Shown here piece after piece: positions 6,509-63,651 of a stretch of 64,000 nt of DNA. Made by a program: the position numbers and the translations under genes. Origin of the DNA: Lachnospiraceae bacterium (lineage in GTDB: Bacteria > Bacillota > Clostridia > Lachnospirales > Lachnospiraceae); the NCBI GenBank assembly GCA_024694965.1, contig JAILJC010000212.1, positions 1 through 64,000 of the forward strand, given 5' to 3'. Every line of letters starts with the position of its first letter. The first letter of the stretch is position 1. The notes beneath the pieces were generated by a model. The model worked only from the letters and a program-made list of their open reading frames with translations. It was not told where the DNA came from and ran no database searches.

Positions 6509-7389
6509 GTCTTGATAAACTGATCGAATGCACGGGAGCCAACTATATAGTACTTGTACCGAACGGCTTGCAGGATACTCCCCAGTCTCAGGAGATAGAC
6601 TATACATCTCCCGCGAGTCTTAAGGATGACGAGCTTAAAAAGATGATCGGTCATATCAAGTCGCGCGGATTAAAGGTTGCTCTCAAACCTACGGTCAACT
6701 GTAAGAACGGTACCTGGCGGGCTCATATCTGCTTTTTTGACAGGGATGTTCCCTGTGAGCCGAAATGGTCGGTATGGTTTAAGGCGTATACGGACTTCCA
6801 GCTGCATTACGCGCGTCTGGCTGAAGAAACGGATGTTGATATGTTCATTGCCGGCTGTGAAATGGTGCAGTCAGAGCACAGAGAAGATGAATGGCGTAAA
6901 GTCATTTCAGATATAAGGGAAGTCTACAGCGGACCCGTTACCTATAATACCGATAAATATCAGGAAGATAATGTGAACTGGTGGGACTGCGTGGACATGA
7001 TATGCTCAAGCGGATACTATCCCGTAAATGACTGGGATACCCAGCTTGACCGGATAGAAAAAGTTGTAAAGAAATTCGATAAGCCCTTCTTCTTTGCCGA
7101 GGCAGGCTGCAAATCAACCAAAGGTTCCATGTACCTGCCTAATGACTGGACACTCAGGGGCGATGCAGCTCCCGATGAACAGGCATTGTGGTATGATACC
7201 ATGTTCAGGGCCTGTGATAAACGTGATTTTGTTAACGGTTTCTTCCTGTGGGACTGGAGCTTAAAGCTCTATTCCCACAGGGAAGCCTCCCTTGATAAAG
7301 GGTACGACATCTACGGAAAACCTGCAGAGCAGGTCATCCGCGATCATTATATGTCTATTCCCAGAAAAGCTCATCCAGAGTCTTGTTGA
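6433..7389 (+). CDS. Glycoside hydrolase, GH113-like (endo-beta-mannanase family)
   Basis: TIM-barrel-like motifs: YIKGITYG, FIAGCEMVQSE (putative acid/base Glu), PFFFAEAGCKS (putative nucleophile Glu); RBS AAGGAGAG. Confidence 0.7.
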   Translation: MEYIKGITYGAFAGAGSFAKKQAYLSLDKLIECTGANYIVLVPNGLQDTPQSQEIDYTSPASLKDDELKKMIGHIKSRGLKVALKPTVNCKNGTWRAHICFFDRDVPCEPKWSVWFKAYTDFQLHYARLAEETDVDMFIAGCEMVQSEHREDEWRKVISDIREVYSGPVTYNTDKYQEDNVNWWDCVDMICSSGYYPVNDWDTQLDRIEKVVKKFDKPFFFAEAGCKSTKGSMYLPNDWTLRGDAAPDEQALWYDTMFRACDKRDFVNGFFLWDWSLKLYSHREASLDKGYDIYGKPAEQVIRDHYMSIPRKAHPESC

Positions 7390-7546
7390 GCACCTTGCAT
7401 ATCGCTATGCAAAGATTGATCGTAGGGTTATAATCACCCTTTTCGATGGCGCTTATCGTCTGTCTCGATACCCCGCATTTCTTTGCAAGGTCCTCCTGGG
7501 ACAGATCCATGCCGGCCCTGGCTGCCTTGAGTTTTAAGTTCTTCAT
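7355..7546 (-). CDS. Small XRE/Cro-like HTH regulator
   Basis: LSQEDLAKKCGVSRQTISAIEKGDYNPTINLCIAICKVLNKTLDELFW. Confidence 0.9.
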   Translation of the reverse strand: MKNLKLKAARAGMDLSQEDLAKKCGVSRQTISAIEKGDYNPTINLCIAICKVLNKTLDELFWE

Positions 7547-7549
7547 GGA

Positions 7550-8080
7550 TCAGTCCTCCTCATCTTTCTTATTTTTATCTATAAGATGCTTGATGCCAAG
7601 TTCAGTAAGCAATATCGCCATCATGATCATGACCAGAATGTTTAACACTGGTGCCCCGCTTATACCATTCCTTGCAAATTCCCCTCTTAAAGCAGGTACT
7701 ACTATCGGGAAAAGGTTAAGGAACAGACATACTCCGAAAATAATGTAATAACGCTTGTGGTCATTATTAAGTCCCCAGTAAACATCATGCCATATGCAAT
7801 ATCCGCCAAGAACAGTACATGATAAGAATATCCCTATGAATTCGGCAATATAGGGTTCGAAGGGTAAAGAAACCTCTCCTATTGAAAGTCCTATAAGAAG
7901 AGCCTGGTACAAAAGCATTGTATAAAATGCGATCTTATATGCCTTGCCTCTTATCTTTTCCTGTCTCTCATCATACTCACTCTTTATCTTCCTGTCAGTA
8001 TTGGCGACCTTATAAAGGATCACCACTATGACAAGACCTACCATCAAACCTGCTATAAATCCAATTCCCCTTCCGTTCAT
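7550..8080 (-). CDS. Membrane protein of unknown function, likely cotranscribed with the XRE regulator
   Basis: Four to five hydrophobic segments; stop 4 nt from HTH start. Confidence 0.6.
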   Translation of the reverse strand: MNGRGIGFIAGLMVGLVIVVILYKVANTDRKIKSEYDERQEKIRGKAYKIAFYTMLLYQALLIGLSIGEVSLPFEPYIAEFIGIFLSCTVLGGYCIWHDVYWGLNNDHKRYYIIFGVCLFLNLFPIVVPALRGEFARNGISGAPVLNILVMIMMAILLTELGIKHLIDKNKKDEED

Positions 8081-8288
8081 GATCTTCCTCCTTTACTTAT
8101 CTTAAATCTTATTATTTCCTTTTATTTCCGTGCTCAAAAAAAACTCCATCAATAAGTTCTTACATACATGAAAGGGTGACGTCTTTCCCTTTCTAAGCAT
8201 ATAATAACCTGTCAATGGAGTAATGTCAAGTATATTTTACAATTTTCTTTTATGAAATGATTTTAGCTTGATTTATTTGCTTAAATGA

Positions 8289-9896
8289 TCAGTAATTATC
8301 AGGCAGATCGTTCTCTAAAAGGATATACTTATGTCCCTGCCCCTTTATCTCATAAGCACAGGAAAGAGCTTCCTCAAGCTTATCGAATGCTTTTATCTTC
8401 TCTTCCGGAAAGCCCTTGCTCAAAGCCCCGTCATATATGGGCTTCGTACGTTTCTTACCGACAAGAAGTATATGATCGCAGCAATCCGCCGCATATGTTC
8501 CAAACTTATAGTTATATTCCTCTTCCTTATCACCGAGCTCGACCATTCCGGGAGTGATCATTATCCTTATGCCGTCAAACATCTTAAGAGTTTCAACCGC
8601 TGCCCTGCTGCCCACGGGATTTGAATTGAACGCATCGTCTATGATCGTAACAAGCCCGTGCTCCCTAAGCTGCATCCTGTGCTCAACGCTCTGAAGCCGC
8701 CTTACCGGAACTTTAAGGTCCTTAAGCTTAACGCCCAGTTTATTTGCGACCGCTATCGCACCCACTACGTTTATCACATTATGGGCGCCTAAAAGCTTCA
8801 TCTGGAACTGTTCGCTTTCACCGTCGGGAGATGTGACCGTAAAATCGGTACCCTGCTGCGATACCCTGATATCTCCTGCCCTATATCCGTTTACAGCTAT
8901 CCCGGACATATCAGATATGTCTTTTTCTTCCGCCGTATCCGATGCGTCCGTATAATAAAATACCTTATTCTTATATCCCTGCGCTTTATCCCTTATGTAC
9001 CCGTTATCCCCGTTAAGGAACAGCATCCCCCCATCCGGCAGGGCATCCGCGAGTTCAAACTTCGTGTTCTTTATATTTTCCATATTAAAGAAGGTTTCAA
9101 GATGCTGAGGCCCTATCGATGTGATAATCCCGTGATGAGGATGCACGATATCACCGATCTCCTTAATATCTCCAACATGCCTTGCACCCATCTCACATAC
9201 GAAGATCTCATGCGTTGACTTAAGCGATTCCCTTATCGTCTTTACCACGCCCATCGGCGTATTGTAGCTCTCGGGCGTTACCAGCACGTTAAAACTGTCC
9301 TTTAAGAGAGTCTGTAAGTAAAACTTGACGCTTGTCTTTCCGTAGCTTCCCGTAACACCGATAACGGTAAGGCCGGGTGATTCTTTAAGCATCCTCTTTG
9401 CATCGTTTATATAGTACTGCTTTACGCCCCATTCGACGGGATGGTTTATCGTATTGGCAACTACGTTCATCAGCAGCTGGAGCCCCGTAAGGATCAAGAG
9501 CATGCCGCTTAACCTGTTTATCCCGCAAAATACAAAGGTAATTACAAGTATTGCCGCTTCGACAACGATCATGGTCGCTATCATTCTCTTGACCCTTGCG
9601 GTGTATACGAGTTTCTTCTTTGTATTAAGCCTTCTCATCGCGTTATATACAAGGATGATGAGAAGCAGAGTCAGCCAGCTTAAGATATCAAGGCCCGTAA
9701 CCGGGAAGATCAGCCTTAATATGCCTGTGACAAGTGCAAATATGAGAAGCCACTGGGGCCTTAGGTTTTTCTTAAGCCTGTTTAAATGTTCCCCGTTCTT
9801 ATAGCCGTTCAACTGGAACATATGCATGTTGTGGCGCATGGCAAGGAAGAACGCGGGGATAAAAAGTATAAAAGTAATTATTGTTCGTATGATCAT
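8289..9896 (-). CDS. Membrane-anchored Mur ligase family protein (MurF-like)
   Basis: N-terminal TM segments; Mur P-loop GVTGSYGKTS, CEMGARHVGDI, DDAFNSNPVGSRAAVETL. Confidence 0.8.
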   Translation of the reverse strand: MIIRTIITFILFIPAFFLAMRHNMHMFQLNGYKNGEHLNRLKKNLRPQWLLIFALVTGILRLIFPVTGLDILSWLTLLLIILVYNAMRRLNTKKKLVYTARVKRMIATMIVVEAAILVITFVFCGINRLSGMLLILTGLQLLMNVVANTINHPVEWGVKQYYINDAKRMLKESPGLTVIGVTGSYGKTSVKFYLQTLLKDSFNVLVTPESYNTPMGVVKTIRESLKSTHEIFVCEMGARHVGDIKEIGDIVHPHHGIITSIGPQHLETFFNMENIKNTKFELADALPDGGMLFLNGDNGYIRDKAQGYKNKVFYYTDASDTAEEKDISDMSGIAVNGYRAGDIRVSQQGTDFTVTSPDGESEQFQMKLLGAHNVINVVGAIAVANKLGVKLKDLKVPVRRLQSVEHRMQLREHGLVTIIDDAFNSNPVGSRAAVETLKMFDGIRIMITPGMVELGDKEEEYNYKFGTYAADCCDHILLVGKKRTKPIYDGALSKGFPEEKIKAFDKLEEALSCAYEIKGQGHKYILLENDLPDNY

Positions 9897-9928
9897 TTTA
9901 TTCCTTTATTTTCTGTGCTGCTCTTAGT

Positions 9929-10699
9929 CTAGCACTCAAAGTAGCTCCTCATTATATTACGGAAGATAACCGGCTGTTCAAGGAAGGAAAAATGCCCGCA
10001 GCCCTGAAGTATTGCAAGTCCGCAGTTTGGTATCATTTCCTCCATCAACTTACCGTCGCTTATCGGTGTTGCCGTATCCTTATCGCCCCAGATAAGGAGC
10101 GTATCCTGTTTGATCTTCGGCAGCAGGTCCGTTAAGTCTTCGTTTACCGCCATTACCATGCACTGCCGCATCATGGGTGAAGCATTCCTGTAATCGGCCG
10201 AGCCCTGCTGACTCCTCCAGTCATCAATGAGCTCGGGAAACAGCGCATATATGAGCTTAACGCTTACTATCTTCTTTATAATCTTGTACTTTCTTATATT
10301 GAATTTCTGCTTAAATGACCTTTTCGGCATGATACCGGCGCTGTCTATGAGCACTAAGTTCTTTATCTCAAACGGTATGCTCTCCCTCGCCGCAAGCTTG
10401 ATTATTATCCTTCCGCCGTAGGAATGTCCTATAAGAGTCGCCTTCCTTATATCAAGCGCCTCCATGAACTTAATGAAAAAATCCGCGTAAGCATCCACAT
10501 TCCAGGGCTCTTTAGGCTCATCGGATCCGCCGAAACCGGGTAAGTCAAACTGGACAAAGCGGTATTTTTCGTTTATCGAATCCGCCACGGAATCATAAAC
10601 TCCAAGGTCTGTGCCCCATCCCTGGAGCATCACGACCGTATCGTCTCCCGATCCGGTTATCTTATAGCATATGTTCAATCCGTCAACTTCTATGTTCAT
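9929..10699 (-). CDS. Alpha/beta hydrolase
   Basis: DLPGFGGSD, nucleophile elbow LIGHSYGGR, GCGHFSFLEQP. Confidence 0.88.
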   Translation of the reverse strand: MNIEVDGLNICYKITGSGDDTVVMLQGWGTDLGVYDSVADSINEKYRFVQFDLPGFGGSDEPKEPWNVDAYADFFIKFMEALDIRKATLIGHSYGGRIIIKLAARESIPFEIKNLVLIDSAGIMPKRSFKQKFNIRKYKIIKKIVSVKLIYALFPELIDDWRSQQGSADYRNASPMMRQCMVMAVNEDLTDLLPKIKQDTLLIWGDKDTATPISDGKLMEEMIPNCGLAILQGCGHFSFLEQPVIFRNIMRSYFEC

Positions 10700-12141
10700 C
10701 TTCCTCTTCCCGTTTTCTTTTTCTGCTTTGCGTCATTTGCCGTCGGTTCTTTATCTTCGTAAATATAACTGTCGATAAGTCCCGATAAGATAAATTCCTG
10801 CGGCTCGTTGTAGTATTCCGATCCGTGATCATAAGCATAGTCTTTACCCAACGCATTTCTTCCATACAGGAAAGCGAGCCTGTCCTCGCAGCACTCAACA
10901 TAAGTAATACTCTTGCTTATGTAATTACCCAACACCACAAGCCTGGCGTTATCAAAAGCCTCTTTTACAGCTTCCTCTTCATTTTCACTATCGGAAACAG
11001 TAAAGAACTCCTCCTCCGGAGACTGCTTGACCACGGTATTTATATCATTCATAAGTGTGGTTATGAATATCTCGGCCACGTCAAGTTCAATGCTGTAATA
11101 GCAGGTAAGATATGCCACCGACCCGAAATATCCGCTTGCTTCTTCATTAAGTCCCTTCTGCAGTCCGTTCGGATTGCTGCCTGCGTAGCTTTCGGCGGTA
11201 AGCCGGTATTCCTTGATGCCTGTTAGCTTATACAGCTGCGCCGAAGCCCAGAACCGCTTGTCGTCACAGGGCTTCGTAGCGGAATACATTCCCTTTTCGT
11301 AATTATCCTCCGCCACATCATACACTGCCTGTGCTATCTTTGTACATTCGTCCGCAAATGCCTTATCGTATTCACTGTAGTTATAGGCAAACATCGCAAA
11401 CACCGCAGCATACTGGTACTGCCTTCCCACATCTGAATGCAGGAACGAAGGGCTTATCTCATCCTCGTCAAAAAACTCCTTAAGTACATCTATATCATCT
11501 TTTGCGATAAGTACCGTCTTTGGAACCTGTTTTCTTTCATCATCCAAAGAAATATCTGCCGCATCCGGAAAAAACTCATTGGAAAGCAGCCTGTCCGCTA
11601 TCCTCATGAAGCTTTGCCCCATGTTTTCCTCCGTGACCTTATCTGCCTCTTTATTGCCCGCAAAATAGTCAAGCCTTTTGGAAAGCAGCTCCTTATACAG
11701 TCCACCGGTTATCGTAAAGGGCTCCGATCTTGCTCCCTTATCGGTCTTTATGTAATACTTTCCTTCCTTCTTTACCTCCGTAAGATCACACACGGCGATG
11801 TTTTTTCCATCCGTTTCTCCGTTAATGTCATCCTCATCCCGTCTGTAACGTATCTTTCCTTCGTACACCGCTTTATCGGTGTCCGCATTCATAACCCTGA
11901 AGGCTTCATCACCGTCCGGGTCTACCACCATTGCCCGCTTAGAACCTGCGGACTCGTATATCCCGGCTCCCGTTGTGATAACGGTGTTTATCTCAGGCAC
12001 ATTATTACTTACCGTGATCCCCGTATCGTAATCGGGTGCAGGTACTAAAGGCTCGGGCTCCGGTCTCTTTTTACCGCACCCGGATGCCAGTATCATGATA
12101 ACGGCCGCGCCGGCAAGGATCAAAGATAAACGCCTACTCAT
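10696..12141 (-). CDS. Lipoprotein with CelD_N (GH9 N-terminal Ig)-like domain and helical C-terminal domain
   Basis: Lipobox ILASGC; V(I)YEGKI..DL(T)EVKKEGKYYIKT module typical of GH9-associated Ig domain; start ATGAGTAG overlaps upstream stop. Confidence 0.6.
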   Translation of the reverse strand: MSRRLSLILAGAAVIMILASGCGKKRPEPEPLVPAPDYDTGITVSNNVPEINTVITTGAGIYESAGSKRAMVVDPDGDEAFRVMNADTDKAVYEGKIRYRRDEDDINGETDGKNIAVCDLTEVKKEGKYYIKTDKGARSEPFTITGGLYKELLSKRLDYFAGNKEADKVTEENMGQSFMRIADRLLSNEFFPDAADISLDDERKQVPKTVLIAKDDIDVLKEFFDEDEISPSFLHSDVGRQYQYAAVFAMFAYNYSEYDKAFADECTKIAQAVYDVAEDNYEKGMYSATKPCDDKRFWASAQLYKLTGIKEYRLTAESYAGSNPNGLQKGLNEEASGYFGSVAYLTCYYSIELDVAEIFITTLMNDINTVVKQSPEEEFFTVSDSENEEEAVKEAFDNARLVVLGNYISKSITYVECCEDRLAFLYGRNALGKDYAYDHGSEYYNEPQEFILSGLIDSYIYEDKEPTANDAKQKKKTGRGR

Positions 12142-54338: not shown

Positions 54339-54426
54339 GGAGAAATACTCAAGAGGCTGAAGAGGCGCCCCTGCTAAGGGTGTAGGTCGGGCAACCGGCG
54401 CGAGGGTTCAAATCCCTCTTTCTCCG
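54339..54426 (+). tRNA. tRNA-Ser (anticodon GCT)
   Basis: GGAGAAATACTCAAGAGGCTGAAGAGGCGCCCCTGCTAAGGGTGTAGGTCGGGCAACCGGCGCGAGGGTTCAAATCCCTCTTTCTCCG, long variable arm. Confidence 0.95.
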
Positions 54427-54429
54427 CGA

Positions 54430-54514: not shown

Positions 54515-56056
54515 ATGACAAACATACTTGATATGCTCGAAAGAGCGGCAGATAAATACGGTGATAAGACGGCATATTCGGATCCGGATAAGGAAATAAG
54601 CTTTTCGGATCTTATGCTAAGTGCAAGGCGCACGGCATCCTGTATGCTTAAAAAAGCTGATGGGCAGGCATTCGGGCCGGGGACTGCGGTGGCGTTTTAC
54701 ATGGAAAAGAGTGTTGATGCGCTTATCGTTATGTTTGCTTCCATGTACCTTGGTTCATTTTATAGTTTTATCGATATAAGACAGACCAAAAACCGGGCCG
54801 AGAGCATATTATCGGTACTCGATCCGGTATTTATAATAACCGATGATGCAAACAGTGAGGCTTTAAATGCTTTTGAATTAAGCTCTGATACAGAAAGCCG
54901 TATCCTTAACATCGGTAAGCTTCTTAAGGAAGCAGGGGAAACCGGGGTTGATGAAGATGCGCTTTTGAAACGAAGGAGCGGTTTTTTTGATAAGATGCCT
55001 CTGTATGTGAATTTTACAAGCGGCAGCACGGGAGTTCCCAAGGGTGTTGTAGTGGGACATGCATCGGTTATCGGGTTTATTAGTGAGTTTACTTCGGTGT
55101 TTGGCATAACAAGCGAGGATGTAATCGCAAATCAGGCGCCGTTTGACTTTGACGTATCCGTTAAGGACATATACAGCGGCCTTTATACGGGAGCAAGGAC
55201 AGCGCTTATACCGAGGGAATATTTCTCAAATCCGTCTGTTTTAATGGATTATCTTGCGGATAACAGGGTCACGACCCTTATCTGGGCAGTATCGGCCATG
55301 TGCTTTGTATCGATAATGAACGGACTTGAATACAAAACGCCGGATACGGTCAAAAGAGTTATGTTCTCAGGGGAACTCATGCCTGTAAAACAACTTAATA
55401 AATGGAGGAAATTTATTCCCGATGCCATGTACGTCAATTTGTACGGGCCTACCGAGATAACTTGCAACTGCACTTATCATATATTAAACCGGGAATATGA
55501 AAAGGATGAAGTGATCCCGATCGGGATACCGTTTAAGAATGAGAAGGTTTTCCTGCTTGATGAAAATGACAATAAGGTAGAATCACCCGGAACCGAAGGA
55601 GAAATATGTGTATCGGGTTCCTGTCTGGCACTCGGTTATTATAAGGAACCGGAAAAAACGGCGGAGGTTTTTGTCCAGAATCCTTTAAATACAAGGTTTA
55701 TCGAGCAGATCTATAGGACCGGAGATCTTGGAAAATACGGAGAAGACGGCCTTCTGTATTATACCTCCCGTAAGGATTTCCAGATAAAGCATATGGGACA
55801 GCGGATAGAGCTTAATGATATCGATGTTTCCGCCATGTCTGTAGACGGAGTTTCAAGGGCTGTCAGTATATATGACGACAAACGTAAGAAGATAATCCTG
55901 TTTTATACAGGGGAAACTGATAAGGATGTTCTGGCTGAAAGCCTTCATAAGAAGCTTCCACCGTTCATGCTCCCGTCAAAGACAGTAAAGCTAGAGGAAA
56001 TGCCGCTTAACAAGAACGGAAAAATAGACAGAAAAGCTCTGGAAGGGCTTAAATAG
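54515..56056 (+). CDS. Amino-acid adenylating enzyme (DltA/NRPS A-domain-like)
   Basis: FTSGSTGVPKGVVVGH; FDFDVSVKDIYSGL (Asp at position of NRPS D235); NLYGPTEITCNCT; NKNGKIDRKAL. Confidence 0.88.
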   Translation: MTNILDMLERAADKYGDKTAYSDPDKEISFSDLMLSARRTASCMLKKADGQAFGPGTAVAFYMEKSVDALIVMFASMYLGSFYSFIDIRQTKNRAESILSVLDPVFIITDDANSEALNAFELSSDTESRILNIGKLLKEAGETGVDEDALLKRRSGFFDKMPLYVNFTSGSTGVPKGVVVGHASVIGFISEFTSVFGITSEDVIANQAPFDFDVSVKDIYSGLYTGARTALIPREYFSNPSVLMDYLADNRVTTLIWAVSAMCFVSIMNGLEYKTPDTVKRVMFSGELMPVKQLNKWRKFIPDAMYVNLYGPTEITCNCTYHILNREYEKDEVIPIGIPFKNEKVFLLDENDNKVESPGTEGEICVSGSCLALGYYKEPEKTAEVFVQNPLNTRFIEQIYRTGDLGKYGEDGLLYYTSRKDFQIKHMGQRIELNDIDVSAMSVDGVSRAVSIYDDKRKKIILFYTGETDKDVLAESLHKKLPPFMLPSKTVKLEEMPLNKNGKIDRKALEGLK

Positions 56057-56087
56057 TATTGACCTAATATTTCAAGGATGTAGGGTA

Positions 56088-57281
56088 ATGATCGAAGAAG
56101 CGCTTAAAAACATAATAAAAGAATATCCAACCCCTCTGTTTCTGTTTGATGCGGATGAATTAAGAAGCAGGGCGTTTAAGATTAAGGAAATACTTAATGC
56201 AAACGGAAATAAAACAGGACTTTGCTATTCCATAAAGGCAAATCCGTTCTTAATCCCGCAGCTTACGGATGTGGTGGATAAGTTCGAGGTATGTTCGCCT
56301 GGAGAGCTTTCAATCTGCATGTCATACAATGTAAAGTCGGAAATGATCATCTATTCGGGAGTGCATAAGGAAGAGGAAGATATAACCGAGGCAGTAAAAT
56401 TCGGAGTAGGTATACTTACGGCAGAGTCTGTACGGCATTACGGATTGATCGATAAGGTAGCCAAAAAGCTTGAAAAAAAGGTAAATATAATTCTTAGGTT
56501 ATCGTCAAAAAGCCAGTTTGGCATGTCGATCGATGATATCCGGCAAATTCTTAAGGAAAATGCAGGCAATAAATACGTAAATATCGAAGGTCTCCACTAT
56601 TTTGCGGGAACACAGCGTGTAAAGCTTAAGCACCAGAGGGAAGAACTTATGATGCTTAAGGATGTTTTTTCCGGGTTACGGGAGGAATTCGGCATGGAAT
56701 TACGTTTGTTCGAATACGGCCCGGGCCTTGCATTTCCTTATTTTACGGACGAAGACAGGAGCGATACGCTTAAACCCCTTAAGGAGCTCGCCGATGATCT
56801 TTATACGGCAGCAGGCTTCAGCTCCCTTACCGTTGAAATGGGGCGTTTCCTGGCAAGCAGCTGCGGATACTATCTAACAGGGGTGTGTGATGTTAAAAGA
56901 TCGCATGACAATATCTGGTGCATCCTTGACGGAGGGATTAATCACCTTAATTACCTCGGACAAATGATGGGAATGAAAACACCTGTTATAATAACACTTC
57001 CGAATAAGGACAGCACTGAATTAAATAACACCTTTGGATTGGCGGAAAATCAGACCTTGTGTGGATCCTTGTGCACGACCAACGATGTTATTTTAAGAAG
57101 TTTTAAAGACAGGCGCCTTGAGAGCGGAGACGTCCTTGTATTTTGCAATACAGGTGCTTATACCATAACCGAAGGACTGAATCTTTTCTTAAGCAGGAAC
57201 ATGCCGGTTGTCCTTATTAAAAGAGATGGTATAATATCAAAGGTAAGGGATGTTACCCCGACCTGGAAACTTAATTCCTAG
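56088..57281 (+). CDS. Fold-type III PLP-dependent decarboxylase (DAP/ornithine decarboxylase family; possibly carrier-protein-dependent)
   Basis: CYSIKANPFLIPQL (PLP Lys), EVCSPGELSICM, VEMGRFLASSCGYYLTGV, CGSLCTTNDVI, CNTGAYT. Confidence 0.85.
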   Translation: MIEEALKNIIKEYPTPLFLFDADELRSRAFKIKEILNANGNKTGLCYSIKANPFLIPQLTDVVDKFEVCSPGELSICMSYNVKSEMIIYSGVHKEEEDITEAVKFGVGILTAESVRHYGLIDKVAKKLEKKVNIILRLSSKSQFGMSIDDIRQILKENAGNKYVNIEGLHYFAGTQRVKLKHQREELMMLKDVFSGLREEFGMELRLFEYGPGLAFPYFTDEDRSDTLKPLKELADDLYTAAGFSSLTVEMGRFLASSCGYYLTGVCDVKRSHDNIWCILDGGINHLNYLGQMMGMKTPVIITLPNKDSTELNNTFGLAENQTLCGSLCTTNDVILRSFKDRRLESGDVLVFCNTGAYTITEGLNLFLSRNMPVVLIKRDGIISKVRDVTPTWKLNS

Positions 57282-57295
57282 GAGGAATACGTATT

Positions 57296-57517
57296 ATGGA
57301 AGAATTACTGGAATTACTTAAAGATGTAAGGGACGATGTTGATTTTGAGAATGCGCAGGATCTTATAGACGGTAAGATATTGAGCTCTTTTGATATAATA
57401 CAGATCATAAGCGTGATCGATGAGGAGTATGACGTTGCAGTTCCTGCAACGGAGATAATCCCTGCTAACTTCAACAGCGCAAAGGCCATCTATGATATGA
57501 TACAGAGGCTTAAATAG
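57296..57517 (+). CDS. Acyl/aminoacyl carrier protein
   Basis: DGKILSSFDIIQIISVIDEEYDVAVPATEI (Ser attachment site in LSSFD). Confidence 0.85.
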   Translation: MEELLELLKDVRDDVDFENAQDLIDGKILSSFDIIQIISVIDEEYDVAVPATEIIPANFNSAKAIYDMIQRLK

Positions 57518-57526
57518 GAACAGGAT

Positions 57527-58447
57527 CTAAAGCAGGCCCCTTGATCTTAGAAGATCCACGAGCTTTTCGGTATAGACGGTACGTCCCTTAGAGGACATAT
57601 GGCTCATATCCTCATAAAAATCGGGTTCGTGGTTGTCAAAATCGATATCATGCGCATATACGCATTCCACATCATATTCATTCATAAGATCGACAAAGTA
57701 TTTGTGGTATTCAACATATACCGGATCGTCCTCGAGCCTGTAATAATGGGGACTTTCGAGGAATATAAAGGGCTGTGAATCCCTTTTGCATTTTTCGATC
57801 ACTTCACGGACCGCATCAGCCTGTGCATCGATAAGAACGGAATCACTTATATCAAACTGTTCGTTTTCTAAAAATTCCTTTCCGGAACTCTTTGTATCAT
57901 CGGTTTTTGCACCTTTATAATACCTGGTCGAATAAAAACGTTCGGTCACCGGATAAGTTATAAGGTCATCCATTCCCGAGGTAACGAAGTATTCATACAT
58001 CACCGGAAGGCCTGCATTTCCCTCGTTTTTGAGCTTACCCCACAAAGCCCTCTTTCCATCAAACGACAGATCCCAGATAACCCTAGAGTCGGAAAGCTTT
58101 ACTTCCTCTGTGAGCATCAGGGGATCAAGTTCAAACACCATAAGTCCGTAACCGGCTTTCGAGCGTTTCTTTATCTCATCATACTGAATGGAGGTTGCGG
58201 CATACTGATTTCCTCCATAGGAAATGATGAAGGCTCTGTCATTTACGGCTTCATCCAGAGTATGGATGTTAAGGTTGCTCCTGAAGGTGGAAGAACCTAT
58301 AAACAAAAGGTCGAGGTCACCTTCCTTTATGGCCGCCCTTATCCCTCTGTTTCCGATAGGGATCTCACACGAATATACATTTTTAAAGGCTACGGCAGCG
58401 GTTATAACGATAAGTGCCGTAAGCAGGGATATCACAGTTTTTTTCAT
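57527..58447 (-). CDS. SGNH-hydrolase/DltD-like membrane-anchored protein
   Basis: LLFIGSSTFRSNL (Ser), YEDMSHMSSKGRTVYTEKL (Asp..His); N-terminal TM. Confidence 0.75.
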   Translation of the reverse strand: MKKTVISLLTALIVITAAVAFKNVYSCEIPIGNRGIRAAIKEGDLDLLFIGSSTFRSNLNIHTLDEAVNDRAFIISYGGNQYAATSIQYDEIKKRSKAGYGLMVFELDPLMLTEEVKLSDSRVIWDLSFDGKRALWGKLKNEGNAGLPVMYEYFVTSGMDDLITYPVTERFYSTRYYKGAKTDDTKSSGKEFLENEQFDISDSVLIDAQADAVREVIEKCKRDSQPFIFLESPHYYRLEDDPVYVEYHKYFVDLMNEYDVECVYAHDIDFDNHEPDFYEDMSHMSSKGRTVYTEKLVDLLRSRGLL

Positions 58448-58501
58448 AAAACACCCCGACAAACAACTTATTTGTGCATGTTAATGCGGTTTTTCCCGGT
58501 A

Positions 58502-59929
58502 TCAGAATGCCTGGTACATGAAATTTGACTGACCCGCGACCCCAAACAGGGCCATTACAACGAGCATTCCCGTAGCATACAGGTATCTGTGCCGGGAAAA
58601 GGCGTTTTCATTTTTTTCTTTTAACAGTTCAACAATGAACAGTACCGTCATCAGCACGGTGAGTATGATAACGGAGGCCGCAGCCTGATTTCCGTTCCCA
58701 AAGGGTGTAAGTGAAGCCATTATTGAACCGCCGTTTATCTTTGTTGTTGTGAAGATACGCTTATATATCATAAACGCATCGGAAAGACTGTGTGCCCTAA
58801 ACATCACTTCGCCGAGCAGCACGATTAAGAAAGTCCGTATTGTCGTAAATATCTTTATAAACACGTTATCATCATTCCAGTGTATCGCTTTTTTGAGTTT
58901 CTTCATATATGACATTGAACAAACGGAGAAAAGCATGATGATCGCAAAATAAACACCCCAGCCGATATATACATCTTCAGCTCCGTGCCAGATACCGGTG
59001 ATTATCCATACAAGGATAAGAGGAAATACCGTACGGAGGTTACCCTTTTTGGCTTTGGGAAAGATCTTTCCGAGGAACTTGGAAGCTTTTCTGTTCCAGC
59101 CTGATGTTACGGCCGGCATCATAAGGTGCTCTTTGAACCATTCGTTAAGGGAGATATGCCATCTTCTCCAGTATTCCTGAATATTCCTTGAAAAATACGG
59201 GCGCTTGAAGTTTTCGGTAAGCTTTATACCGAGCATGTAGGAAATACCGCAGACTATATCCATATAACCCGAAAAATCGGCATAAAGCTCGATCGCATAG
59301 AAAAACACTGCGATAATTAAGGTAAGTCCCGCATAATTTCCGGGTGAAGAAAATACGGTATCTACATAATAGGTAAGCCGGCCGGCTATTACGAGCTTTT
59401 TGAAAAGACCCTTTATTACCCTGTAACCGCCTGATTTTATATTGTTAAGATCAAAAGCGTGAGGAGATAAAAGCTGATCCTTCATGTTACCGTATGTACC
59501 GATGGGGCCCTGTGTTATCTGGGGAAAGTAGGAGATAAAAAGGGCATAATGCAGCAGGTTTTTCTCCGGTTCGATCTTTTTTCCCATACAGTCATGCGCA
59601 TATCCCAGTGTCATAAATGTGTAAAAGGAAATGCCCAGAGGCACGATCAGCGAATGTATATTGAAATAAATGCTGTACCTGAAAACGATAAGTATACCGA
59701 GGTTTATGATAAGAGTCAGTATCCACCGGACCTTTGAGGGTTTAAGCATCAGGTACCAGGTGGAGACAATGGATACTGCTATAAACACTATATAAACGGG
59801 GCGGACCCAGGCATAGAAAACAATACTGCCAAGAAGCAGCACCATCCATTGGTATTCCGGTTTCACCCTGTAATAAACAATGAGCAGAATGATTATAAAT
59901 ATAAGGAAAGAAATTGAAATAAGGCTCAT
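58502..59929 (-). CDS. MBOAT family O-acyltransferase (AlgI/DltB-like) with C-terminal FMYQAF motif
   Basis: ENFKRPYFSRNIQEYWRRWHISLNEWFKEHLMMP; WIITGIWHGAEDVYIGWG; ends AGQSNFMYQAF*. Confidence 0.93.
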   Translation of the reverse strand: MSLISISFLIFIIILLIVYYRVKPEYQWMVLLLGSIVFYAWVRPVYIVFIAVSIVSTWYLMLKPSKVRWILTLIINLGILIVFRYSIYFNIHSLIVPLGISFYTFMTLGYAHDCMGKKIEPEKNLLHYALFISYFPQITQGPIGTYGNMKDQLLSPHAFDLNNIKSGGYRVIKGLFKKLVIAGRLTYYVDTVFSSPGNYAGLTLIIAVFFYAIELYADFSGYMDIVCGISYMLGIKLTENFKRPYFSRNIQEYWRRWHISLNEWFKEHLMMPAVTSGWNRKASKFLGKIFPKAKKGNLRTVFPLILVWIITGIWHGAEDVYIGWGVYFAIIMLFSVCSMSYMKKLKKAIHWNDDNVFIKIFTTIRTFLIVLLGEVMFRAHSLSDAFMIYKRIFTTTKINGGSIMASLTPFGNGNQAAASVIILTVLMTVLFIVELLKEKNENAFSRHRYLYATGMLVVMALFGVAGQSNFMYQAF

Positions 59930-60065
59930 TTTTGGATTCCTTAAGCTTTAATAACTCGATTATAGTGTTAAGGATGTACAGGTGTCAAATATTGCGCTTG
60001 CACATAAGATGCATATTTTATAAAATTGGGAAGAAGACTTAAGCATAAGGTGGGCTTTAAGGATT

Positions 60066-62651
60066 ATGCGGGAATTCTTATATAAAAAAAGAAATATATT
60101 GTGCCCGTTACTGGCATTTTTGATCCCTGTTGCCGTAATGGTATTTATCTGCATTCTGTCAGGCTTTTATCCCTTCGGGGATACATCCATCCTGATGGCA
60201 GATATGAGATATCAGTTCGTGGATTATTTCGGGTACATGAAGAAGATATTCTTTTCGAACGATACCCTGTTTTACAGCTTTTCAAAGACGCTTGGCGGCG
60301 ATATGGCGGGGCTTGAGGCCTATTACTGCAATAACCCGTTTCTTCTGTTTCTCCTGTTTTTACCCAACAATATGCTCCCCGGCGGAATACTTGTAATGAT
60401 GATAGTAATGCTCGGTCTTATCGGGCTTTGCTTTAATATCTTCCTTACAGAGGTATACGGCAGCAGGTATACAACCCTTGTTTTTTCAACAGCTTATGCA
60501 TTCATGGGCTATCTTATGGGGTATTTCAACTGCGTTCATTATTTCTTTAATGTGATGATGCTTCCTCTTGTAATGCTTGGTATATACAGGATCATAAAAA
60601 GCGGAAAGATAAGCATTCTTTATATCATTTCGCAGGCTCTTTCCGTTTTTTCCAGTTATTATATAGGATATATGATATGCATCTTTTCGGTATGCTTCTT
60701 TATATATGAGTATTTCACGCTTTATACCGACATAAAGAGCGTGAAGAATATAAAAAAGCATTTAAAGCCCGTATGGATCTTCATATCTACCTCAATACTT
60801 GCCGCAATGTTATCGGCGGTCAGCCTCCTTTGCTCCGTGATATCTTTAAGGGAACAGAGCAGCAGGAAGCATATTCCGATATCACTTAAGGGAAATTTCA
60901 ATATAATAGACTTTTTCTCCGGCTTCTATTCAAATGTATTTAACGGAAACGTATCCGATGACGGCCTGCCGCTTATTTATTCCGGTGCCATTGCCCTAAT
61001 ATTCATAATGATCTTCTATCTTGCCGGATCGATAACAAAAAGGGAGAAGTTTATATCTGCAGGGGTATTTGTTTTTCTGATCCTGGGGTTTTATGTGGAT
61101 ATCCTTAATGTAGCATGGCACGGGTTCTCATACCCGATAGGCTTTCCATACAGGAATTCATTTCTTCTTAGTTTTTGGGTGTTATTTTTAGCTTACAAGT
61201 GTTTCCTGAAACCCGGTGAAATAAAGGCAAAGCAGGTGATCATACCGTTATTCATATGTGTTATTTATTCGTTGTACGCTGCTGTTATTTTAAGAAGCAA
61301 AATAGGATTACGGCCGATATATATTACCTGTTTTTATGTGGCTTTCATATATCTTCTTATATATATATACAAAAAAACGTCATTTAAAAAATATGTAATG
61401 CCTATGTTTTTGATGCTGGCTTTGGTAGATGCATCTTATAATGCATATGTTTCGGTCAATGCATATTTTCCGGAGAAAGAAGAAGATAAAAGCATAAGCA
61501 TCGGAGCATACAGGGACTTTGTTGATGAGACATCCGCCATCGTGGATCACATTAATAATGAAGACAGTGGGTTTTACCGTATTGAGAAGCTTTACAGGCG
61601 CAGCAATAACGATGCGATGCTCATAGGATACAACGGAATGTCGCACTTTTCCTCGTGTGAAGCTGAGCAGACCATGAGGTTTATGGGTACGCTTGGCTTC
61701 AGGGATAACGGAAACTGGGCATTTTACGGCGAAGGAAGCTCTGCATTTGCCGATTGTTTGTTGGGTATGAAATACCTGCTGTCCCAGTACAACGAAACAC
61801 CAAAGCCGTATGAGCCTTTCTACAGATATAACGAAAAATTTGTATTCCTTAATCCCTATGCGCTTCCGTTATGCTTTACGATGCAGAAAAGCTGCACTGA
61901 TCTAAAACCTGAAGGATATGACAAATTTTCCTATCAAAATGCACTGGCGGGAAGTTTTGGATATGAAGGAGACGATATTTATACTAAGGTGGAAGATGTG
62001 GAGGTTACCCTTGATAACCTGAACAGGGAGGGAAATACATATACGGTTATTGATGATAATAAAGAAGCCTGCATTCGATTAAGCTTTATCAACAATAGCA
62101 CGGATTTCATCTATATGTATTATGATGCAGACGCTCTTCAGGAAGCAGATATAGTAGTAAACGGCCTTTTAAAACAGCCTTATTTTACATCATACGGATG
62201 GAGCATAAGGGAGCTGGGCTATTATCCTGAGGGAGAGTCCGTAGAGGTACTTATATATCCCGGGCAAGATGAGATAACCCTTAACGGATTTGAATTCTAT
62301 TATGAAAACAAAGCTGCCATCGCCGATTGGTATGAGTGTGCAACAAAAGACAAATGTGAGCTTACAAAGGTAACATCTTCGCATCTTACCGGAAAAGCTT
62401 CTTCATCCGGAGATAAAATGCTTGTTTTTTCGTTCCCTTATGATAATACATGGCAGGTATTCGTTGACGGAAAGAAAGTCGAGAATAAAAAAGCAATAGA
62501 CGGCCTTCTGGCAGTCGATCTTGAAAAAGGAGATCACAGTGTTGAACTTAAATATACGCCCCGCGGTTTTGTGATCGGCCTTCCCGTAAGTATAGCCGGT
62601 ATCATTTCTTTATTTATAATAGTGTTTTATAAAAAACGCCGGGGTTGTTGA
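60066..62651 (+). CDS. YfhO-family polytopic membrane protein (GT-C-like)
   Basis: 861 aa, about a dozen TM helices, YfhO-like large extracytoplasmic domain and C-terminal VFVDGKKVENKKAIDGLLAVDLEKGDHSVELKYTPRG. Confidence 0.88.
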   Translation: MREFLYKKRNILCPLLAFLIPVAVMVFICILSGFYPFGDTSILMADMRYQFVDYFGYMKKIFFSNDTLFYSFSKTLGGDMAGLEAYYCNNPFLLFLLFLPNNMLPGGILVMMIVMLGLIGLCFNIFLTEVYGSRYTTLVFSTAYAFMGYLMGYFNCVHYFFNVMMLPLVMLGIYRIIKSGKISILYIISQALSVFSSYYIGYMICIFSVCFFIYEYFTLYTDIKSVKNIKKHLKPVWIFISTSILAAMLSAVSLLCSVISLREQSSRKHIPISLKGNFNIIDFFSGFYSNVFNGNVSDDGLPLIYSGAIALIFIMIFYLAGSITKREKFISAGVFVFLILGFYVDILNVAWHGFSYPIGFPYRNSFLLSFWVLFLAYKCFLKPGEIKAKQVIIPLFICVIYSLYAAVILRSKIGLRPIYITCFYVAFIYLLIYIYKKTSFKKYVMPMFLMLALVDASYNAYVSVNAYFPEKEEDKSISIGAYRDFVDETSAIVDHINNEDSGFYRIEKLYRRSNNDAMLIGYNGMSHFSSCEAEQTMRFMGTLGFRDNGNWAFYGEGSSAFADCLLGMKYLLSQYNETPKPYEPFYRYNEKFVFLNPYALPLCFTMQKSCTDLKPEGYDKFSYQNALAGSFGYEGDDIYTKVEDVEVTLDNLNREGNTYTVIDDNKEACIRLSFINNSTDFIYMYYDADALQEADIVVNGLLKQPYFTSYGWSIRELGYYPEGESVEVLIYPGQDEITLNGFEFYYENKAAIADWYECATKDKCELTKVTSSHLTGKASSSGDKMLVFSFPYDNTWQVFVDGKKVENKKAIDGLLAVDLEKGDHSVELKYTPRGFVIGLPVSIAGIISLFIIVFYKKRRGC

Positions 62652-62706
62652 TTCTTAACTAAAATGCTATTATATGTTTGTTATCTTTTTCCTAGCGGAG
62701 GTTGAA

Positions 62707-63651
62707 ATGGAAGATTACAAATTATCGGTGGTAGTCCCCGTATATAATGAAGAAAACGGAATAAAACCTTTTCTTGAAAGGACAGAAAAGGTTATAGATG
62801 ACTTGGGCTGCGATTATGAGATCATCTTCAGCCTGGATCCGTCAACAGACGATACTTATAATGTAATAAAAGGAGAAATGAAGCGTAATCCGCATATAAA
62901 GCTCATTACCATGAGCCGCAGGTTCAGGCAGGCAGCCGCAACAATGGCAGGAGTGCTTAACTGTACAGGCGATATCTGCGTGGTCATAGATGTGGATCTT
63001 CAGGACCCGCCGGAAGTCATCACCGAGCTTGTCGCAAAGTGGAAGGAAGGTTATGACGTGGTATATGCCCAGCGTATAGACAGGCAGGGCGAGACAAAGT
63101 TAAGAAAGCTTATCGATATGACCGCATACAGGGTTATCAATTTCCTGTCGGATGTTGAAATACCAGTAGATACTTCCGATTTCCGCCTTATAAACAGGAG
63201 GGTTATTGAAGAGATCCGCAAGATGCCCGAAACAAACATGTTCTTCCGCGGAATGGTATCTTATGTCGGATTTAAACAGGCTGCGGTCCGCTTTCACCGT
63301 GAAGCAAGGGAGGCTGATGACAGTAAATACAACCGCTTCTTTGGTGAATTCAGGATGGGCTTCCACGGGATATTCTGTTTTTCGAGCAAGCCGCTTGAAT
63401 ATGTTACCTTCCTTGGCGGTTTCATGACAGCATTCGGAGTGTTCCTTTCCGTTATATGGTTTTTACAGAACGCATTTTGTACCCGCGCTAAAAAAGCGGT
63501 ATCGGGAGTTACGGCGCTTATCTGGTTTATCGGAGGCCTTAACGTTTTCGTATCGGGACTGCTTGGAGAATACATTACAAGGATTTATGACGACGTAAAA
63601 GGAAGGCAGCGTTTCATCATTGATGAGTTCGATGAAAACAAGGGCGAATGA
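62707..63651 (+). CDS. Family 2 glycosyltransferase, CsbB/GtrB-like (polyprenyl-phosphate glycosyltransferase)
   Basis: LSVVVPVYNEENGI; ICVVIDVDLQDPPEVI; two C-terminal TM helices; start at ATGGAAGATTAC. Confidence 0.92.
   Translation: MEDYKLSVVVPVYNEENGIKPFLERTEKVIDDLGCDYEIIFSLDPSTDDTYNVIKGEMKRNPHIKLITMSRRFRQAAATMAGVLNCTGDICVVIDVDLQDPPEVITELVAKWKEGYDVVYAQRIDRQGETKLRKLIDMTAYRVINFLSDVEIPVDTSDFRLINRRVIEEIRKMPETNMFFRGMVSYVGFKQAAVRFHREAREADDSKYNRFFGEFRMGFHGIFCFSSKPLEYVTFLGGFMTAFGVFLSVIWFLQNAFCTRAKKAVSGVTALIWFIGGLNVFVSGLLGEYITRIYDDVKGRQRFIIDEFDENKGE

Follow-up and report, generated by a model that had tools for sequence, protein, structure and literature searches.

D-alanine is, to our knowledge, the only acyl group known to be put on Gram-positive polymers by DltB/DltD-type machinery. 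Decarboxylation of carrier-bound amino acids has been described from antibiotic pathways: BtrK turns carrier-bound Glu into gamma-aminobutyric acid (GABA), converting glutamyl-S-BtrI to GABA-S-BtrI (PMC7857480), and in the VinN/VinL/VinO system decarboxylation needs prior thioester formation (PMC11284099). Here we describe a five-gene locus of a Lachnospiraceae metagenome-assembled genome (MAG), located in a window of 64,000 nucleotides (contig JAILJC010000212.1, positions 1 to 64,000), that appears to combine the two. We put at roughly 0.7 the probability that it encodes a Dlt-like pathway making its acyl group via decarboxylation on the carrier. Its features, by window position, are as follows.

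54515-56056, plus strand: LIG, a stand-alone amino acid adenylation (A) enzyme, DltA-like, 513 amino acids (aa) (PF00501, E 1.9e-59)
56088-57281, plus strand: DEC, a fold-type III pyridoxal phosphate (PLP) decarboxylase, 397 aa (Orn/DAP/Arg decarboxylase domains, E 1.3e-17 and 3.9e-12; DAP, diaminopimelate)
57296-57517, plus strand: ACP, a DltC-like acyl carrier protein, 73 aa (PRK05087 (DltC), E 9.4e-6, a weak match)
57527-58447, minus strand: SGNH protein, DltD-like, 306 aa, with an N-terminal hydrophobic helix (SGNH blocks and predicted fold)
58502-59929, minus strand: MBOAT acyltransferase, DltB-like, 475 aa (PF03062, E 2.1e-16)
59959-59988, minus strand: candidate sigma-70 promoter TTGACA-18-TATAAT, 5' of MBOAT-SGNH (12 of 12 positions, a consensus match only)

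LIG, DEC and ACP, spaced by 31 and 14 nucleotides, converge with the SGNH and MBOAT genes, and 9 nucleotides (57518-57526) separate the ACP and SGNH stops. These five open reading frames (ORFs) and spacings, including the 9 nucleotides, are as an earlier note on this DNA had reported, and its family assignments were borne out by profile for the AMP-binding, decarboxylase, ACP and MBOAT proteins and by conserved blocks and predicted fold for SGNH. Comparison with relatives makes ATG 58447 a more likely SGNH start than TTG 58462 of the ORF list. A tRNA-Ser(GCT) gene with a consensus promoter (54339-54427, plus strand) lies directly 5' of the ligase.

In the proposed pathway, LIG would adenylate a small dicarboxylic amino acid, with L-Asp or L-Glu the likeliest substrate and the side chain the likeliest site, and load it onto the phosphopantetheine at ACP Ser31. 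While the amino acid is bound to ACP, the BtrK-like DEC would release its free alpha-carboxylate as CO2, so that an omega-aminoacyl thioester remains, either beta-alanyl-ACP or GABA-ACP. The DltB-like MBOAT would move the aminoacyl group across the membrane and, together with the DltD-like SGNH protein, esterify an extracellular polymer, adding positive charge. Candidate conversions are thus Asp to beta-alanine and Glu to GABA, with DAP to Lys less likely. We draw on the gene set, its co-conservation, the catalytic residues and the folds, all of which are observed, and from these we infer the order of steps, the substrate and the polymer.

The five genes recur together well beyond the window. 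A search of 250 same-family genomes with DEC gave a match in 61, of which nearly fifty were clear orthologues (>140 bits) and the remainder mostly LysA-like (25-29% identity). We examined the neighbourhoods of 39 same-family DEC loci, the C57 locus of the window's genome and 80 loci named from 84,980 species genomes. A ligase lay within 6 kb of DEC in 111 of 118 loci, always on the same strand and with a median gap of -3 nucleotides; within the same distance were an ACP (100 loci), an MBOAT (93) and a DltD/SGNH protein (90). All four partners were present in 52 of the 73 loci uncut by contig ends. None of 20 control lysA neighbourhoods, taken from the same genome set and searched with the same models, held any partner, and this difference from the recurrence in 118 loci rules out a chance neighbourhood.

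Typical gene orders read LIG-DEC-ACP-MBOAT-DltD or MBOAT-DltD-LIG-DEC-ACP, and in most cases the genes share a strand. The convergent arrangement of the window is found in L117, L118, L120 and L121, and in L110, L111 and L114 with at least one gene between the halves; in L112, L113 and L115, genes of the same SGNH and MBOAT types immediately precede the other half and share its strand. Co-conservation of the two halves, on which the earlier note had made its proposal depend, is therefore seen as convergence in several relatives and as one-strand neighbours in most others. The set ranges over Lachnospiraceae, Oscillospiraceae, Erysipelotrichaceae, Coriobacteriia and one Treponema MAG, its hosts including Butyrivibrio, Roseburia, Eubacterium ramulus, Lachnospira, Gemmiger formicilis, Ruminococcus albus, Slackia exigua, Olsenella and Tractidigestivibacter. 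The spirochaete record (Treponema sp. CETP13 MAG, L153), with the order DltD-LIG-DEC-ACP, represents either lateral transfer or mis-binning. Recurrent neighbours, named from sequence, were response regulators (17 loci), histidine kinases (13) and MacB-like permeases (8); two-component system genes stand beside many of these operons, which we count for a Dlt-like decarboxylating pathway. We also observed, by eye, a decarboxylase fused to a membrane-anchored extracellular region that is Ig-like/transglutaminase-like (genome G065, L076 7213-10557, minus strand), and a similar secreted protein coded between DEC and MBOAT in L065 (10705-11745).

DEC has its PLP lysine at K50 (56235-56237) and its catalytic cysteine at C329 (57072-57074); both residues, the E-x-G-R motif (E250-G252-R253), D333 and Y358 are invariant across 24 homologues. 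By phmmer, its nearest solved relatives are BtrK structures (2j66/7ru7, E 2.7e-30), named L-glutamyl-[BtrI ACP] decarboxylase, and DEC shares with the BtrK type the PLP lysine, the catalytic cysteine and coding beside a carrier and an amino acid ligase. The earlier note had raised the possibility that DEC is simply an ordinary LysA, the only one in its genome. DEC scores 161 bits against the LysA model TIGR01048 (cut-off 297.9), although most separate Lachnospiraceae LysA proteins themselves fall just below that cut-off. Its top NCBIfam match is the exosortase-associated TIGR03099, at 163 bits marginally above the LysA score and against a cut-off of 478. A tree places all 82 DEC sequences in a single group, and the long branch between this group and LysA has support 100; the position of BtrK in it is uncertain, as long branches are involved. 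A separate LysA-type protein (265-459 bits) is present in all 35 other genomes tested, comprising 34 DEC-positive genomes and G193, a 99% complete genome of the same genus that has LysA and lacks DEC. Given the sub-cut-off score, the separate clade and these 35 genomes, we reject an identity as ordinary LysA. The window's own MAG (88% complete) is the exception to this pattern, as a search for LysA found none there, leaving DEC the sole such decarboxylase seen in it.

The ten-residue code of LIG is DVKIMSLCNK, in which D213, V214, K217, S285, C317 and N318 correspond to GrsA positions 235, 236, 239, 301, 330 and 331 (GrsA numbering is used below). Among 105 DEC-adjacent ligases, 95 have the code DVK..S.CN, nine IAR..S.A/GS and one DAKCAVLGVK, and position 239 is Lys or Arg in every one. 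A basic residue at 239 pairs with a carboxylate in the codes of acidic or side-chain-activated substrates (Glu, aminoadipate). Its constancy in ligases beside DEC suggests that a carboxylate is still present on the substrate at loading, i.e., that loading precedes decarboxylation, and we infer that LIG loads a small dicarboxylic amino acid at this stage. The same order is favoured because BtrK and VinO act on carrier-bound substrates (PMC7857480, PMC11284099). DEC might instead decarboxylate a free amino acid, so that LIG would directly load the resulting beta-alanine, GABA or lysine, as would suit both the gene order and the habit of most fold-type III decarboxylases, which use free amino acids. 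With the conserved K/R239 pointing to a carboxylate still on the loaded substrate, and with ACP-bound decarboxylation as the precedent among ligase/ACP/decarboxylase trios, we consider this unlikely.

The pocket also bears on whether the locus is no more than a D-alanylation (Dlt) operon of the usual kind that adjoins an unrelated lysA-like gene, as the relationship of four of its genes to DltA, DltB, DltC and DltD might suggest. DltA has Met at 239 and, at 301, Cys269, its D-Ala-defining residue (PMC11253843); LIG and its relatives have Lys and Ser, and a D-Ala-type pocket is rejected for LIG on both positions. LIG scores 258 bits against TIGR01734 (DltA; cut-off 559.85), ACP 25.6 against PRK05087 (68) and MBOAT 149.5 against TIGR04091 (DltB; 375), all far under the Dlt cut-offs, and DEC is co-conserved over genera, families and phyla. 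Ligase code and scores rule out a plain D-Ala identity, and we regard such an operon as highly improbable.

D235, V236 and S301 of LIG resemble features reported for A domains that activate beta-amino acids, namely D230/F231/S299 of VinN and the A236V change of TycA (PMC11253843). The length of the beta13-beta14 loop, a sign of beta-amino-acid activation in VinN, was uninformative by motif counting, as the ligase groups did not differ. The code as a whole would fit a substrate with a second carboxylate, in support of loading before decarboxylation, and is compatible with Asp, Glu and DAP alike. With DAP, LIG would activate one alpha-carboxyl of the meso form and the LysA-like DEC would take the distal D-centre carboxylate off the carrier-bound DAP, so that ACP would carry a lysyl group and the polymer lysyl esters. 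In favour are the usual role of D235, which contacts the alpha-amine when an amino acid is activated at its alpha-carboxyl, the fold family common to DEC and LysA, and the strongly cationic surface that lysyl groups would give. This version is nevertheless improbable in our view, since the pocket (V236, L/M299, S301, L322) is like the small pockets for Ser or beta-amino acids rather than deep, and phmmer places DEC closer to BtrK than to LysA, even if the tree position of BtrK is unsure.

Several observations weigh against a pathway that loads a dicarboxylic amino acid and then decarboxylates it for a surface polymer. K239 is also present in Dlt-like ligases without an adjoining DEC (DAKCAGLGMK; one DVKILSLGNK, in L107), and we reject the idea that a basic 239 is exclusive to DEC-linked ligases; ligases of Dlt-like operons without DEC have mostly other codes, DAKCAGLGMK in five. 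The basic pair of VinN sits at 330/331, where LIG has Cys-Asn. V236 and S301 are found in Ser codes as well (DVWHLSLVDK; PMC12283262), so the code fails to identify the substrate. As for the acceptor, searches of the window's MAG for PF00884 (lipoteichoic acid (LTA)-synthase-type) and PF04464 (TagF/B-type) proteins found neither.

PF00884 proteins are present in 31 of 34 genomes tested, and a PF00884 gene lies about 5 kb or less from the decarboxylase in G191 and G145; the same search gave no match in two other genomes, each 99% complete. LtaS is thus rejected as a guaranteed acceptor pathway, being not found in the window's MAG. Adjoining MBOAT in the window (60066-63651, plus strand) are a YfhO-type GT-C protein and a PgfS-like GT2 (families of glycosyltransferases, GT), as in transmembrane glycosylation systems. 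Both were rejected as conserved partners: they stand beside the set only in the near relatives L110 and L120, which indicates shared synteny.

The remaining proteins match the later, Dlt-like steps. The likely phosphopantetheine site of ACP is Ser31 (57386-57388), and the serine motif (D/S/T/N)S(F/L)DI is kept in its homologues. MBOAT has the RRWHISL and WHG histidine motifs, the latter in 87 of 87 relatives, and its solved relatives are DltB only (6bug/8jem, E 1.1e-21). Profile searches of Pfam and NCBIfam gave no match for the SGNH protein; its conserved blocks GSS (51-53), GGNQ (N80) and DxxH (D280/H283) are invariant in an 11-member alignment. Its AlphaFold model (pLDDT 88.6) has DltD structures as best Foldseek matches (6pfx, 3bma and 6o93; E 1e-4 to 1e-3, TM score about 0.5), and the protein is predicted to have the DltD fold with the SGNH triad. 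Catalytic residues for every proposed step (DEC, SGNH, MBOAT and the carrier serine) are therefore present in the sequence. Dlt-like transfer of a decarboxylated amine, as the earlier note had envisaged, agrees with these DltB-only and DltD-best relatives as far as its logic goes; the amine and the polymer would be those proposed above.

A second ligase type, IAR..S.AS, has Arg239 and no Asp235 (L053, L057, L179, L181-L183, L185, L187 and L189, mostly in the order LIG-ACP-DEC). These ligases correspond to a single DEC clade (support 95) and probably use a different substrate. We see about an even chance that these loci form an undescribed Dlt-like class, widespread among Clostridia, Erysipelotrichia and Coriobacteriia of gut and rumen, which places an omega-amino acid (beta-alanine or GABA) produced by on-carrier decarboxylation on a surface polymer and comes in two versions (DVK..S.CN and IAR..S.AS) that use different substrates.

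Other Dlt-like sets were also observed. One is a second operon in the window's own genome, which runs ligase-ACP-MBOAT-DltD, lacks a decarboxylase and has the ligase code DAIRIGIGVK (L089, G000:C57:8000-27900, 6680-11071), and two distinct acylation systems thus coexist there. The same genome holds a large nonribosomal peptide synthetase cluster, whose ORFs of 3095 aa and 1043 aa include several A domains (G000:C1; L012, L015-L017). In L096 (G087:C12, 4222-6921), an Asp/Glu racemase-like gene lies directly 5' of ACP-MBOAT-DltD with no ligase nearby, hinting that other Dlt-like sets may load acidic D-amino acids.

Taken together, the conserved five-gene set carried by many bacteria of the gut and rumen probably serves to attach beta-alanine, GABA or another decarboxylated amino acid in place of D-alanine. 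If true, the surfaces of abundant members of these communities (Butyrivibrio, Roseburia, Lachnospira, Eubacterium ramulus, Gemmiger, Ruminococcus albus and Olsenella) would bear a cationic ester of another kind, of relevance to resistance against antimicrobial peptides and to host sensing, and the carrier-bound decarboxylation of antibiotic pathways would also serve envelope biology. In a literature search that left subscription papers largely outside its scope, we found no description of a Dlt operon with a decarboxylase and nothing relevant on lysyl, GABA or beta-alanine groups on teichoic acids.

Among known systems, Dlt (DltA, DltC, DltB and DltD) likewise codes a ligase, a small carrier, a DltB-type MBOAT with conserved histidines and a DltD-fold SGNH protein together. 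It differs in lacking the PLP decarboxylase and in the A-domain residues Met and Cys, in place of K239 and S301; here, moreover, LIG, carrier and MBOAT fall under the curated Dlt cut-offs, and MBOAT/SGNH may be upstream of, downstream of or convergent to LIG-DEC-ACP. Because the ligase, carrier and MBOAT scores and the D-Ala pocket fail, the locus should not be named a Dlt system, though it seems to work like one. AlmEFG (lipid A glycylation) is alike in that an adenylation enzyme and a carrier aminoacylate an envelope polymer; it is not known to have an MBOAT/SGNH pair or a decarboxylase. BtrJ/BtrI/BtrK of butirosin biosynthesis shares a ligase, a carrier and a BtrK-like fold-type III decarboxylase, but its product goes to an antibiotic, where our locus has a membrane acyltransferase pair, and BtrJ is an ATP-grasp ligase rather than an AMP-binding one like LIG. 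The exosortase-A-associated TIGR03098/TIGR03099 pair, the latter the best NCBIfam match of DEC, shows the same ligase/decarboxylase pairing, but LIG (181 bits, cut-off 592) and DEC (163, cut-off 478) score well below it, and the present pair, from genomes that are mostly Gram-positive, goes together with DltB/DltD-like proteins. In vicenistatin biosynthesis, the A enzyme VinN, which has D235 and S301 in common with LIG, loads 3-methylaspartate on the stand-alone ACP VinL, where the PLP enzyme VinO decarboxylates it (PMC11284099); there the product enters a polyketide synthase, the basic residues of VinN occupy 330/331, not 239, and its position 236 holds a bulky Phe.

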